DNA from: Janthinobacterium sp.
GTDB taxonomy: Bacteria > Pseudomonadota > Gammaproteobacteria > Burkholderiales > Burkholderiaceae_D
Assembly: GCA_003133225.1 (NCBI GenBank)
Contig: PKWL01000025.1
Span: 1 to 64,000 of the forward strand
DNA length: 64,000 nt
Reading direction: 5' to 3'
Shown one piece after another: positions 19,899 to 25,196 of this stretch (within the stretch, counting starts at the first letter, position 1; each line of letters begins with the position of its first letter). The notes below the pieces were generated by a model. It saw only the letters and a list, made by a program, of their open reading frames with translations. It was not told the origin of the DNA and did not search any database. A program made the position numbers and the translations under genes.

Positions 19899-19914
19899 AC
19901 TGGTCATGACAGGT
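19899..19914. promoter_or_regulatory. Candidate operator in front of the GntR regulator gene
   Basis: ACTGGTCATGACAGGT matches 13 of 16 positions of the palindrome at 24733-24748. It is a looser palindrome of the same type (half sites ACYKGT / ACARGT around an ATG-containing centre), 19 bases before the regulator's start, as expected for an autoregulatory site. Confidence 0.55.
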
Positions 19915-20021
19915 GAATATGAGCAGATGAGTATGACGATGGATTAGGAAATCGAGAACTAATTAAATCGAGATAGCTTATATAAAAAATGCGAAATTAA
20001 TAAATTGGTATTGTATGAACA

Positions 20022-20273
20022 TCAATTACGACCCGTAATCCTCTGGTATTTTAATAGCAGTTCCTGTTCGCTTTCGTGGCGTTGCGGATGGACGATGATG
20101 CATTCCACCGGACAAGACTTGATGCACTGCGGCTCGGGATAGTGGCCCGTGCATTCGGTGCATAGGTCTGGGTTTATTTCAAATACCTCAGGCCCTTGCG
20201 AAATCGCTTCGTTCGGGCATTCTGGTTCGCACACATCGCAGTTGATGCAATCGTCCGTGATTAATAAAGCCAT
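20022..20273 (-). CDS. YfhL-type 2[4Fe-4S] ferredoxin
   Basis: An 83-residue low-potential ferredoxin of the YfhL family. Cluster 1 ligands are in [12 protein letters not shown]; cluster 2 has the family's long insertion, [18 protein letters not shown]. The start [13 protein letters not shown] and the overall length are nearly textbook. It carries single electrons in the cytoplasm. It is the last gene of the five-gene redox operon, 32 bases after the membrane Fe-S protein gene. Betaproteobacteria usually have a housekeeping YfhL elsewhere, so this may be a dedicated paralogue for the operon; that part is inference. Confidence 0.93.
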
Positions 20274-20305
20274 TAGATCAATCCTTTTTCAATCAGTGGT
20301 AGGCA

Positions 20306-22661: not shown

Positions 22662-22895
22662 TCAACGCACGAAGTACGGGATCTCGACCCGGATTGCCTT
22701 GGTCGGGCAATCGTGTTCGCACGGCAGGCAGTACCAACATTCGTCGTAGGCCATGCGGATTCTGGCGGTCGCCTGGTCGAACGCCAGAATGTCGGTCGGG
22801 CAGACATCGACACATACGCGGCAGCCTTTGTCGGCGATGCACTTGTCATGGTCGATGATCACGGAAGCGGAAAACTCTATGTCATTGCGTGTCAT
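22662..22895 (-). CDS. AprB-like small 2[4Fe-4S] ferredoxin subunit
   Basis: A 77-residue ferredoxin with eight cysteines. The first cluster motif has an expanded spacing, CIADKGCRVCVDVCP (C-x5-C-x2-C-x3-CP), and the second is CWYCLPCEHDCP. This pair, followed by TKAIRVEIPYF, recalls the cluster domain of the beta subunit of adenylylsulfate reductase (AprB), but AprB has about 150 residues and a C-terminal tail that wraps the alpha subunit, absent here. It is encoded 15 bases after the flavoprotein gene and is probably its electron-transfer partner. A good AAGGAAAG ribosome site precedes the ATG. Confidence 0.87.
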   Translation of the reverse strand: MTRNDIEFSASVIIDHDKCIADKGCRVCVDVCPTDILAFDQATARIRMAYDECWYCLPCEHDCPTKAIRVEIPYFVR

Positions 22896-22910
22896 GTTCT
22901 TTCCTTTTTC

Positions 22911-24638
22911 TTAAGCAGCGGCCGGCGTTTCAACACGCATCCGGTCATAGGCGTCGCGTTCGTCCGCATCGATCGGAAACAGATAGGCAGGCACCGCCCG
23001 CTTGAAACATTCCGGCTGGCCGTCGGCACCCTTGCGCACCTGGACGAAGGTGAACCAGTCCTGGTCATTACGTTCCGGGAAATCAGTGCGATAGTGGTAC
23101 AGACCCCAGCGGCTTTCGGTGCGAAACAGCGATGCATGCGCGGCCAGTTCGGCGCAGTCAAGAATGGCATGCACTTCCATCGCCCGCATCAGCTCGTGAG
23201 GGTTACTGGCCTTGATATGTTCGAGGTCCTCGCGGATTTCGGCAAAACGGCGTAGGCCGATTTCCATTTTTTTGGTCACCTTGGGCGGCTGTAGGTAATC
23301 GTTGACCATGCGCCGCAGCTTGTATTCCACCTTGGTCGGTTGCAGGCCTGTTTCTCGTTCAAGCGGTGCGAAGATGCGCTTTTGCTCGCGCTCCACGTGC
23401 TCCGGGTCGAACTCGGCTAAGGCGCGGTTTGCAGCGAAATCGACGGCGTCCTCGCCGGCGATCTTGCCGTACACCATGGCGCCCATCATGTAGTTGTGTG
23501 CCACGTTGCACAGATCGCCCGCCGCGTACAGTCCAGGCACAGTGGTACGGGCGTTTTCATCGACCCATACGCCGGAAGCGCTATGCCCGCCGCATAGCCC
23601 GATTTCAGAAATCGACATTTCCACCAGGTCATTTCGGTAATCGACCTTCCGGCCCGCATGGAAACGACCGCGCGTTGGACGCTCCGTGATATGCAAGACG
23701 TTCTCGATCTTGGTCACCGTCTCGTCAGCCAGATGGTCAAGCTTAAGAAATACTGGCCCGTTTCCGCCTTGCAGTTCGCGCCAGAATTCCAGCATCATTT
23801 GGCCGCTCCAATAGTCGCTTTTGATAAAGCGCTCCCCCTTGGCATTGACAGTGTAGCCGCCGAATGGACCGGTGACGTAGGCGCAAGCCGGCCCGTTGTA
23901 ATCCTTGATGAGCGGATTGATCTGAAAGCATTCCAGTCCCGATAGTTCGGCGCCGGCGTGATAGGCCATGCTATAGCCGTCGCCGGCATTGGTCGGGGAT
24001 TCGTAGGTGCCAAATAGATAGCCGGAGTCCGGCAGTCCCAGGCGCCCGGCCGCTCCGGTGCAGAGGATGACAGCCTTGGCGCGCACGAGCACGAAATCAC
24101 CAGTGCGGGAATCGAGCGCCATGGCGCCGGCGACGCGCCCATCTTTGCCGAGCAACAGGCGGGTCGCCGTCAAGCGGTTGTTGATCTCCACGCCGGTCTT
24201 GCGCAATTGGCGAAAAAGCACTTTCTTGATGTTGTACCCCTCCGGCATCGGCAGCACGTAGGAGCCCATGTGATGCACCTTCTTTACCGCGTAGTCGCCC
24301 GTTTCATCCTTCTCGAACTTCACACCCCAAGAATCTAGCTCGCGGATCATGTCGTAGCTGCGCGACGCGTACGCGAACAGCGCCTCCTGGTTGACGATGC
24401 CGTCGTTGGCAATGGTGATTTCCTTGACGTATTGCTCCGGCGTGGCATAGCCAGGAATGATTGCGTTGTTCACACTGTCCATGCCCTCGGCAATGGCGCC
24501 GCTGCGCTTGACGTTGGCTTTGTCTAGCAATAGCACGAGTGCCTTTGGAGCCTTTTGTTTGGCCTTGATTGCCGCTATCGGGCCGGCCGTGCCGCCGCCA
24601 ATGATTAATATATCCACTTCGATTGTGCGGGTTCCCAT
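22911..24638 (-). CDS. AprA-like FAD-dependent oxidoreductase (fumarate reductase/APS reductase alpha superfamily)
   Basis: A 575-residue flavoprotein. The FAD fold begins at residue 8 with VDILIIGGGTAGP; KRSGAIAEGMDSVN (44-57) corresponds to the AprA segment RSGAVAxGLxAIN and lacks the His that binds FAD covalently in SdhA/FrdA. Later: AVILCTGAAGRLGLP, LSGLECFQINPLIKDYNGPACAYV, and the C-terminal flavin motif TTVPGLYAAGDLCNVAHNYMMGAM. The helical C-terminal domain (from about 420) ends RWGLYHYRTDFPERND, as in AprA and SdhA. AprA has 620-660 residues, so this is a shorter relative. First gene of the operon, with ribosome site AGGAAAG. The reaction is unknown: a two-electron redox step with the small ferredoxin is likely; true APS reductase activity is not shown. 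Confidence 0.85.
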   Translation of the reverse strand: MGTRTIEVDILIIGGGTAGPIAAIKAKQKAPKALVLLLDKANVKRSGAIAEGMDSVNNAIIPGYATPEQYVKEITIANDGIVNQEALFAYASRSYDMIRELDSWGVKFEKDETGDYAVKKVHHMGSYVLPMPEGYNIKKVLFRQLRKTGVEINNRLTATRLLLGKDGRVAGAMALDSRTGDFVLVRAKAVILCTGAAGRLGLPDSGYLFGTYESPTNAGDGYSMAYHAGAELSGLECFQINPLIKDYNGPACAYVTGPFGGYTVNAKGERFIKSDYWSGQMMLEFWRELQGGNGPVFLKLDHLADETVTKIENVLHITERPTRGRFHAGRKVDYRNDLVEMSISEIGLCGGHSASGVWVDENARTTVPGLYAAGDLCNVAHNYMMGAMVYGKIAGEDAVDFAANRALAEFDPEHVEREQKRIFAPLERETGLQPTKVEYKLRRMVNDYLQPPKVTKKMEIGLRRFAEIREDLEHIKASNPHELMRAMEVHAILDCAELAAHASLFRTESRWGLYHYRTDFPERNDQDWFTFVQVRKGADGQPECFKRAVPAYLFPIDADERDAYDRMRVETPAAA

Positions 24639-25196
24639 GCGTCTTTCCTCTTATGTTTCCAAGGCCGCTGTTCGCGCGGACCAAGTGGTTGCAATTGACC
24701 GGCGCGCGCTTCCAACGGGAGCGCTCCGCCTCACTTGTTATGACAAGTTATGATCAATAAGTGAGGGCGATGTTACTTTCCGATTGCGGCCGCGTGAACG
24801 AATCAAATCGTGATTGCTTATGCAAAAAACGTTAGGGAAAATGCGACCGGCTTCGCGCTTGAAGTGACGTTCTTGCGGCAGCGACTAAGCTGCTGGGTTG
24901 ATCAGCAGCGGCGACGAGGTCATTTGGGTCACCGCGAAAGGACGTCTTTTTGCCCGGACCGTCGCCATGGTTTGACCAAGTTGATTTGACGCCGGAAAGC
25001 AAAGTGGGCGCGACATTGTGAGTGGGAAAACTTCGCGCCAAAGCAGGCATTGCCGCACTCCGACAGCGTCAGCCCAATGAATGGTCCGCGATACCGGCGA
25101 GGCAGCCAGCGCCGGGGAAATGCCGCCGAGCGGGCACCCGCAGTTTTCCAGAGTTTTTTGTTCACGACCACGACGTATCTGCCTGCCGATCTTGTG
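24639..25196. other. Leader of the redox operon and degenerate DNA before the chemoreceptor remnant
   Basis: Apart from the palindromes noted separately I find no gene. The part 24767-24840 is AT-richer and may contain the operon promoter; 24850-25196 has no frame I recognise. Confidence 0.4.
24729..24766. promoter_or_regulatory. Nested palindromes upstream of the redox operon (candidate GntR operator)
   Basis: A perfect inverted repeat ACTTGTTATGACAAGT occupies 24733-24748, 94 bases before the flavoprotein start. It resembles the CTTGTATxTACAAG-type sites known for HutC-subfamily GntR proteins. An outer repeat CCTCACTT (24729-24736) / AAGTGAGG (24759-24766) encloses it. A near copy of the inner palindrome precedes the GntR gene, which makes this the best candidate for the cluster's operator. 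Confidence 0.65.

Follow-up and report, generated by a model that had tools for sequence, protein, structure and literature searches.

Probable GntR/HutC-type operators and a second, sulfur-type box at a mosaic flavoprotein locus of Janthinobacterium sp.

Introduction

We examine here a stretch of 64,000 nucleotides from Janthinobacterium sp. (contig PKWL01000025.1, positions 1 to 64,000; called the window throughout), in which two similar 16-bp inverted repeats lie upstream of a flavoprotein operon and of the gene for a GntR-type regulator. A preliminary description of the sequence had proposed that the pair are operators of this regulator and join the redox operon and the regulator in one regulon. 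We compare the two sites with the promoters of orthologous loci, and also the regulator with its solved relatives. The comparisons show two real and conserved elements, which are probable binding sites of a repressor of the GntR type. We also report two features that did not appear in that description, a further box of sulfur type upstream of both operators and a glycine at residue 51 of the regulator.

Results and Discussion

The genes concerned all lie on the minus strand, with the flavoprotein operon first, then the GntR gene, and then the genes for a binding protein, a permease and an ATPase. The features are the following (PWM, position weight matrix).

24795 to 24823, minus strand: second conserved box (CysB-type, as we infer), about 47 bp upstream of operator 1; PWM score 33.0, window excluded from training
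24733 to 24748, minus strand: probable GntR operator 1, in the upstream region of the flavoprotein operon; reads ACTTGTCATAACAAGT in the gene direction
22911 to 24638, minus strand: AprA/fumarate-reductase-type flavoprotein; NCBIfam NF006131 (PRK08275), 1049.5 bits against a cut-off of 587
22662 to 22895, minus strand: small di-[4Fe-4S] ferredoxin with a weak AprB match; Fer4 models; aprB model at 7.1e-07, below its cut-off
21688 to 22653, minus strand: HEAT-repeat protein; PF13646, 3.7e-52
20306 to 21676, minus strand: NapH-like membrane Fe-S protein; PF12801, with NapH-family models scoring below cut-off
20022 to 20273, minus strand: YfhL-type 4Fe-4S ferredoxin; NF033683 above its cut-off
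19955 to 19983, minus strand: weaker copy of the second conserved box, about 40 bp upstream of operator 2; PWM score 16.9
19899 to 19914, minus strand: probable GntR operator 2, in the GntR upstream region; reads ACCTGTCATGACCAGT in the gene direction
19083 to 19880, minus strand: GntR/HutC regulator (winged helix-turn-helix and UTRA domains; PF00392, PF07702) with Gly51
17478 to 18872, minus strand: NMT1/SsuA-like ABC substrate-binding protein, 3' of the GntR gene; NMT1 models above cut-off, SsuA family model below
16637 to 17548, minus strand: ABC permease; PF00528
15795 to 16778, minus strand: ABC ATP-binding protein; PF00005

Site 1 (ACTTGTTATGACAAGT, 24733-24748) and site 2 (ACTGGTCATGACAGGT, 19899-19914) have the letters and positions first reported for them and are identical at 13 of 16 positions. 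Site 1 had been called a perfect palindrome, but it differs from its own reverse complement at two positions, that is, in one mismatched pair (T7/G10), and the inverted repeat of site 2 has two such pairs; perfect symmetry is thus rejected for both. The flavoprotein start codon lies 94 bp beyond the end of operator 1, and the GntR start codon 18 bp beyond the end of operator 2; a placement like the latter recurs in orthologous loci, in 77 of 91 of one set and in all 29 of another (see below). With up to three mismatches to the 16-mer originally put forward, the window gives four matches, which are these two places on both strands and no others; 100 shuffles gave 0.11 matches on average and none reached four. 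Over the whole genome (5.74 Mb), a degenerate consensus matches only these two places at no more than one mismatch. Two further places appear at two mismatches, and the reversed control pattern has nine matches per strand at no more than two. The earlier failure to see a clear third copy before the binding-protein gene is borne out, since the best match in 18873-19082 has five mismatches to the degenerate consensus, and a third operator there is therefore rejected. An additional inverted repeat, CTCACTT...AAGTGAG, surrounds site 1; by eye, it is missing from L034, the locus with the closest flavoprotein among the copies fetched.

Conservation of the operator

We now turn to the orthologous loci, where a motif search upstream of related clusters had been suggested as a check. 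The 80 named loci from the flavoprotein scan are the best 80 of 582 confirmed, and an order-level flavoprotein search found matches in 22 of 399 genomes, one of them the own genome. With four plasmid-collection regions the locus set comprises 106 loci; three were dropped because a 500-bp flavoprotein stretch was identical to that of another locus, which leaves 103 with the window copy included. The GntR gene stands directly upstream of the flavoprotein gene in 91 of these 103 dereplicated loci. The ferredoxin gene usually comes next; behind it stand the HEAT gene and, in many loci, genes for an ABC transporter, either of which may come first. Three of the four plasmid-collection regions also have an annotated DUF971 protein within the cluster.

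An operator was called at no more than three mismatches to ACYTGTYATRACARGT within 150 bp upstream of GntR. It is found there in 77 of the 91 loci, and in six more (five Caballeronia and one Cupriavidus) it lies before the flavoprotein gene instead, so that 83 of 91 promoters carry the motif. The controls gave 12 of 2442 upstream regions of other open reading frames in the same loci and one of 1706 random windows. Because the ACYTGTYATRACARGT consensus was shaped by relatives, the test was repeated with the 16-mer of the preliminary description at no more than four mismatches, which gave 74 of 91 loci against 14 of 4235 windows. A separate GntR search covered 392 genomes of the family, of which 50 had a match (the own genome included), and 29 other loci with the same GntR were fetched, partly overlapping with the 91-locus set. 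The operator is present in all 29, with no mismatch in 17 and one in 12. A lack of conservation before the orthologues, which had been named as a ground for refuting the proposal, is thus clearly not what the loci show.

Both operators together occur in none of the 91 loci. Among the 12 loci lacking a directly upstream GntR gene, two have too short an upstream region, the window has a full match, L034 has three mismatches and the other eight at least four. At the place in L034 that aligns with operator 1, the three mismatches to the degenerate consensus represent a degraded copy with the left half intact.

Three columns, G5, A11 and G15, do not vary at all among the 77 sites, and the core hardly does (G5 77, T6 76, A11 77 and C12 76). 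This bears on the suggestion that the sites have the general form of HutC-subfamily operators. Suvorova et al. give a GT-N4-AC core for most sites of that subfamily, with the consensus NyGTMTAKACNy (excerpts of PMC4494728), and both window sites contain this core, with GT and AC four nucleotides apart, in palindromes with one and two mismatched pairs. That much of the suggestion stands. The full palindromic symmetry does not, and neither does the central TA of GTMTAKAC, as the centre here is AT (A8 in 76 of 77 sites, T9 in 75 of 77). The same excerpts describe additional boxes near the main site. The one seen here, a difference from the HutC consensus, is a weaker half-box, CATRAC, directly upstream of the operator; it repeats the core with a 10-bp period. 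The words "fumarate" and "sulfonate" do not occur in the main text of PMC4494728, no binding motif was found in PMC10179380, and none of the open-access papers listed in literature searches describes the cluster or its regulator, judging by titles and abstract starts, regulon databases being outside the scope of those searches.

The regulator and residue 51

The window GntR protein has both family domains above their cut-offs (PF00392 at 67.5 bits, PF07702 at 122.2 bits), and its best solved relatives are NagR (5.7e-31) and DasR. In NagR, Arg38 and Arg48 read two operator guanines (Arg48 reads G-4), and Gly69 anchors the wing; FadR Arg45 and AraR Arg41 are equivalents of the DNA-contacting Arg48 (PMC4333415, in the parts drawn on here). 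Counted along an ungapped alignment, NagR Arg38, Arg48 and Gly69 correspond to S41, G51 and G72 of the window protein. Serine at position 41 is usual in the family (72 of 91 orthologues) and G72 is found in 91 of 91. Residue 51, on the other hand, is arginine in 91 of 91 and 29 of 29 orthologues, and in 122 of 122 of the combined, partly overlapping set; the window protein alone has glycine there and so lacks the recognition-helix arginine of NagR. It is still a family member by its domains, as this arginine is a conserved functional residue and not a defining domain.

We have also considered a general decay of the window protein, which is rejected. It deviates at two of 63 columns conserved at 93% or more, and 29 of 122 orthologues deviate there at least as often; at 85% or more it deviates at seven of 92 columns. 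Many orthologues thus diverge as much at conserved columns, and decay of this kind is not apparent. One other unusual residue is R233L (arginine in 120 of 122). A second GntR orthologue was not found in the own genome, which contains three further relatives at 24-30% identity.

Because Gly51 replaces the arginine aligned with the operator-contacting Arg48 of NagR, this strain may have weak specific repression or none, provided that the glycine is not a sequencing error. The proposal of one regulon for the redox operon and the regulator is therefore supported across the family and is doubtful in this strain, whose regulator is without the arginine that NagR uses on an operator guanine.

NagR (YvoA) of Bacillus subtilis is similar in its winged helix-turn-helix and UTRA domains, and its dre sites are likewise near-palindromic, with recognition half-sites six nucleotides apart (PMC4333415, same parts). 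The differences lie in the half-site (GTGG in dre, mostly ACTTG, ACCTG or ACTCG here), in the serine in place of Arg38 in the 72 orthologues and the window, in the glycine in place of Arg48 in the window alone, and in the targets, which are amino-sugar genes for NagR and a redox/ABC cluster with a sulfur-type box here.

The second box

Comparison of the regions upstream of the two window operators revealed a second shared element, ATA...ATTCGTTC, and the L034 alignment has a box similar to the one at 24795 to 24823. Among 106 relatives, 44 have its TTCGTTC part no more than 130 bp before the operator, at a spacing of 31-48 bp (28 of the 29 same-family loci and 16 of the 77 of the first set), compared with 15 of 2120 random windows. 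A weight matrix was built from those 44 sequences, with the window left out, and seven places in the window score above 9. One of these precedes a set of sulfate-uptake genes on the plus strand.

963 to 991, plus strand: copy of the second box, about 60 bp upstream of the sulfate-binding-protein gene; PWM score 22.4
1054 to 6725, plus strand: sbp, cysT, probable cysW (named by position alone), cysA and a CysB-family LysR regulator
5715 to 6725, plus strand: the CysB-family LysR regulator (proposed activator); NF009327, 452 bits against a cut-off of 402

For sbp genes elsewhere, 30 sulfate-binding-protein loci were taken as the best matches from 97 family genomes, 77 of which had one. A box score of at least 15 is found within 250 bp upstream of sbp in 23 of the 30, compared with two of 1053 windows elsewhere and none of 600 shuffles; at a score of at least 10 the counts are 28 of 30 and 42 of 1053 windows. 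Since a box derived from the operator regions also marks sbp genes, and since the window has sbp, cysT, cysA and a CysB-family regulator, the gene cluster is probably a sulfur-starvation system with two controls.

CysB would be the natural candidate to bind the box. At enterobacterial CysB-regulated cys promoters, too, the site lies upstream of the promoter and the targets serve sulfate uptake, with activation sites centred 50-60 bp upstream of the start site (sections of PMC11329422); unlike those sites, the box here was found by comparison alone. Because the same sections call the CysB consensus very weak, the letters of the box do not by themselves identify CysB. With the CysB geometry the operator would cover roughly +1 to +20. 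This agrees with the TATAAT-like hexamers of the relatives, whose uncontrolled count is highest at 15 bp before the operator (26 sequences) and has lesser maxima at 19 and 27 bp.

In Pseudomonas loci, L090 among them, a recurring CTTATGC...TATTTCTCA stands upstream of the operator in place of TTCGTTC, perhaps that lineage's own version of the sulfur box. Other matches in the window include 632-660 (minus strand, score 16.1), upstream of a short SsuC-like permease frame (19-369, minus strand) divergent from sbp, and 25944-25972 (plus strand), a strong one (27.0) about 210 bp before the start, near 26183, of a probable EAL-domain gene that looks frameshifted (EAL by eye). A match at 30523-30551 (minus strand, 18.4) lies about 160 bp upstream of an efflux-pump-adaptor-like gene (29055-30359, by eye), and a weak one at 27393-27421 (plus strand, 12.4) about 160 bp upstream of a porin-like gene (27581-28873; porin by eye, with no NCBIfam match), which could belong to the same sulfur response.

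Origin of the locus

The locus is a mosaic, in which the GntR and transporter genes resemble those of same-family genomes and the flavoprotein operon resembles that of Rhodocyclales. When 100 relatives were searched with the flavoprotein, a copy of at least 60% identity was found only in the own genome, G064 and G062, and 39 genomes of the same genus gave distant matches only. The flavoprotein is 91% identical to that of L034, 80-84% to those of L035-L039 (Rhodocyclales, the order being inferred) and no more than 75% to any other copy fetched. For GntR the identity reaches 80% with same-family copies and is 50-60% with those of L035-L037, and the binding protein reaches 83% with L120 (same family), 82% with L057 (Herbaspirillum) and 64-70% with L034-L038.

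At 311 family-conserved flavoprotein columns the window protein deviates at 28 and those of L034-L039 at 23-29 each, and these similar counts make them look like a distinct PRK08275 subclass. In L034-L039 the subclass is accompanied by a membrane protein of NapH type, and at columns conserved elsewhere it carries residues of its own. We have also examined the option that a flavoprotein gene was excised from between the GntR and binding-protein genes; it is rejected, as comparison with the L050 copy gave no convincing trace. Beside the flavoprotein operon, the segment 25022-25740 contains fragments that, by eye, resemble a broken methyl-accepting chemotaxis gene.

Proposed mechanism and alternatives

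In the proposed mechanism, the GntR/HutC repressor, whose gene lies between the two 16-mers, would use both as operators. Most orthologous loci have a single operator, close to where a GntR-flavoprotein-ferredoxin operon begins (ABC transporter and HEAT genes are often part of it), and the repressor would therefore keep both its own gene and the pathway silent until its UTRA domain meets a ligand, as is expected from the family. In the window's family, the box some 40-47 bp further upstream, which is common to sulfate-uptake genes, would most likely be bound by a CysB-family activator under sulfur starvation. The promoter could then work there as an AND gate, with the activator on in sulfur shortage and the repressor off when the substrate is present. 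This genome departs from that arrangement: GntR with the transporter and the Rhodocyclales-type flavoprotein operon are two units, each with box and operator. With glycine at the key DNA contact, its specific repression has probably become weaker, and control by sulfur may prevail.

The positions and conservation of both boxes, the synteny, the difference at residue 51 and the mosaic are observed directly, while DNA binding, repression, CysB as activator, the ligand and the loss of repression would follow from them. On balance we regard as likely the model in which GntR operators and a CysB-type starvation box form an AND gate, with repression weakened in this genome. Several observations weigh against it. 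In eight of the 91 loci with adjacent GntR, the operator was found upstream of neither gene, and the second box in its TTCGTTC form is absent from 61 of the 77 first-set loci. The region around cysD in the own genome (L195) gave no copy either, and as a plain pattern the box is weakly enriched in that genome, with 16 matches at no more than two mismatches against eight for the reversed control. Promoter scans of both window regions gave no sigma-70 consensus promoters, which are thus rejected at the two sites, and Gly51 could be a sequencing error.

The alternative that survives best accepts the operators and lets the window regulator bind and repress normally, with Gly51 tolerated, compensated or misread in sequencing. 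Both operators retain the invariant guanine, and the remainder of the regulator is well conserved, including the wing glycine G72 that corresponds to NagR Gly69. The arginine, however, is invariant in all orthologues examined, and its equivalents contact DNA in NagR, FadR and AraR (PMC4333415, parts as above). We give normal repression a real chance, but somewhat less than an even one.

It is unlikely that the 16-mers are sites of another regulator of the same genes, with the neighbouring GntR acting elsewhere. Across beta- and gammaproteobacteria the site is found together with this GntR gene, and GT-N4-AC is the HutC form (excerpts of PMC4494728). Covariation between operator column 3 and wing residue 71 also argues against a different regulator in its raw form, with histidine in none of 41 sites that have C at column 3 and in 48 of 58 that do not. 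This may be kinship, because residues outside the DNA-binding domain covary as strongly by mutual information, and a tree-aware test leaves room for the other regulator: it had eight changes and six independent pairs, of which one went the same way and five showed no difference, and it is underpowered. Finally, a chance resemblance between two inverted repeats, both of which are indeed imperfect, is refuted by the conservation across orthologous loci and can be practically dismissed.

The model with operators and starvation box turns a guess on two palindromes into a testable promoter model. It also points to sulfur limitation as a clue to the function of a flavoprotein cluster that annotation calls no more than "fumarate reductase/succinate dehydrogenase", and it presents a natural example of operators that seem to have survived the DNA contact of their regulator.

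Function of the flavoprotein

The closest solved relatives of the flavoprotein are the Methanothermococcus PAPS reductase (8a8o, 9.9e-75) and AprA (2fja, 2.1e-44), and like both it is paired with a small di-[4Fe-4S] protein (PMC10322725, in excerpts). The window protein differs in having valine at the column of the APS-reductase glutamine alpha145 (same excerpts) and leucine at that of AprA Arg265, in a region where the alignment is gapped; the glutamine is APS-specific and the Arg265 column is R in 8a8o. Arg265 we take to be a substrate-site residue. APS or PAPS reductase activity seems unlikely. The most likely role, in view of the sulfur-type box and the SsuA-like transporter, would be that of a sulfur-scavenging reductase acting on some organosulfur substrate.

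Taken further, the cluster may be a sulfur-scavenging pathway of many beta- and gammaproteobacteria, made up of an AprA-like flavoprotein, a small di-cluster ferredoxin, an SsuA-like transporter and a HEAT protein, and AND-gated at least in the window's family. Here the repressor would have lost its DNA-reading arginine and left a two-lineage mosaic on sulfur control alone. We put this fuller account forward tentatively, as one that could well prove wrong.

Two further features of related loci may be mentioned. In L042, a 1194-residue glutamate-synthase-beta-like oxidoreductase (L042:16839-20423) follows the cluster. A NosL-like C-terminal stretch occurs in the binding proteins at L042:13423-14910 (1.6e-5, above the Pfam cut-off) and L104:12424-13875 (4.9e-4, below it).

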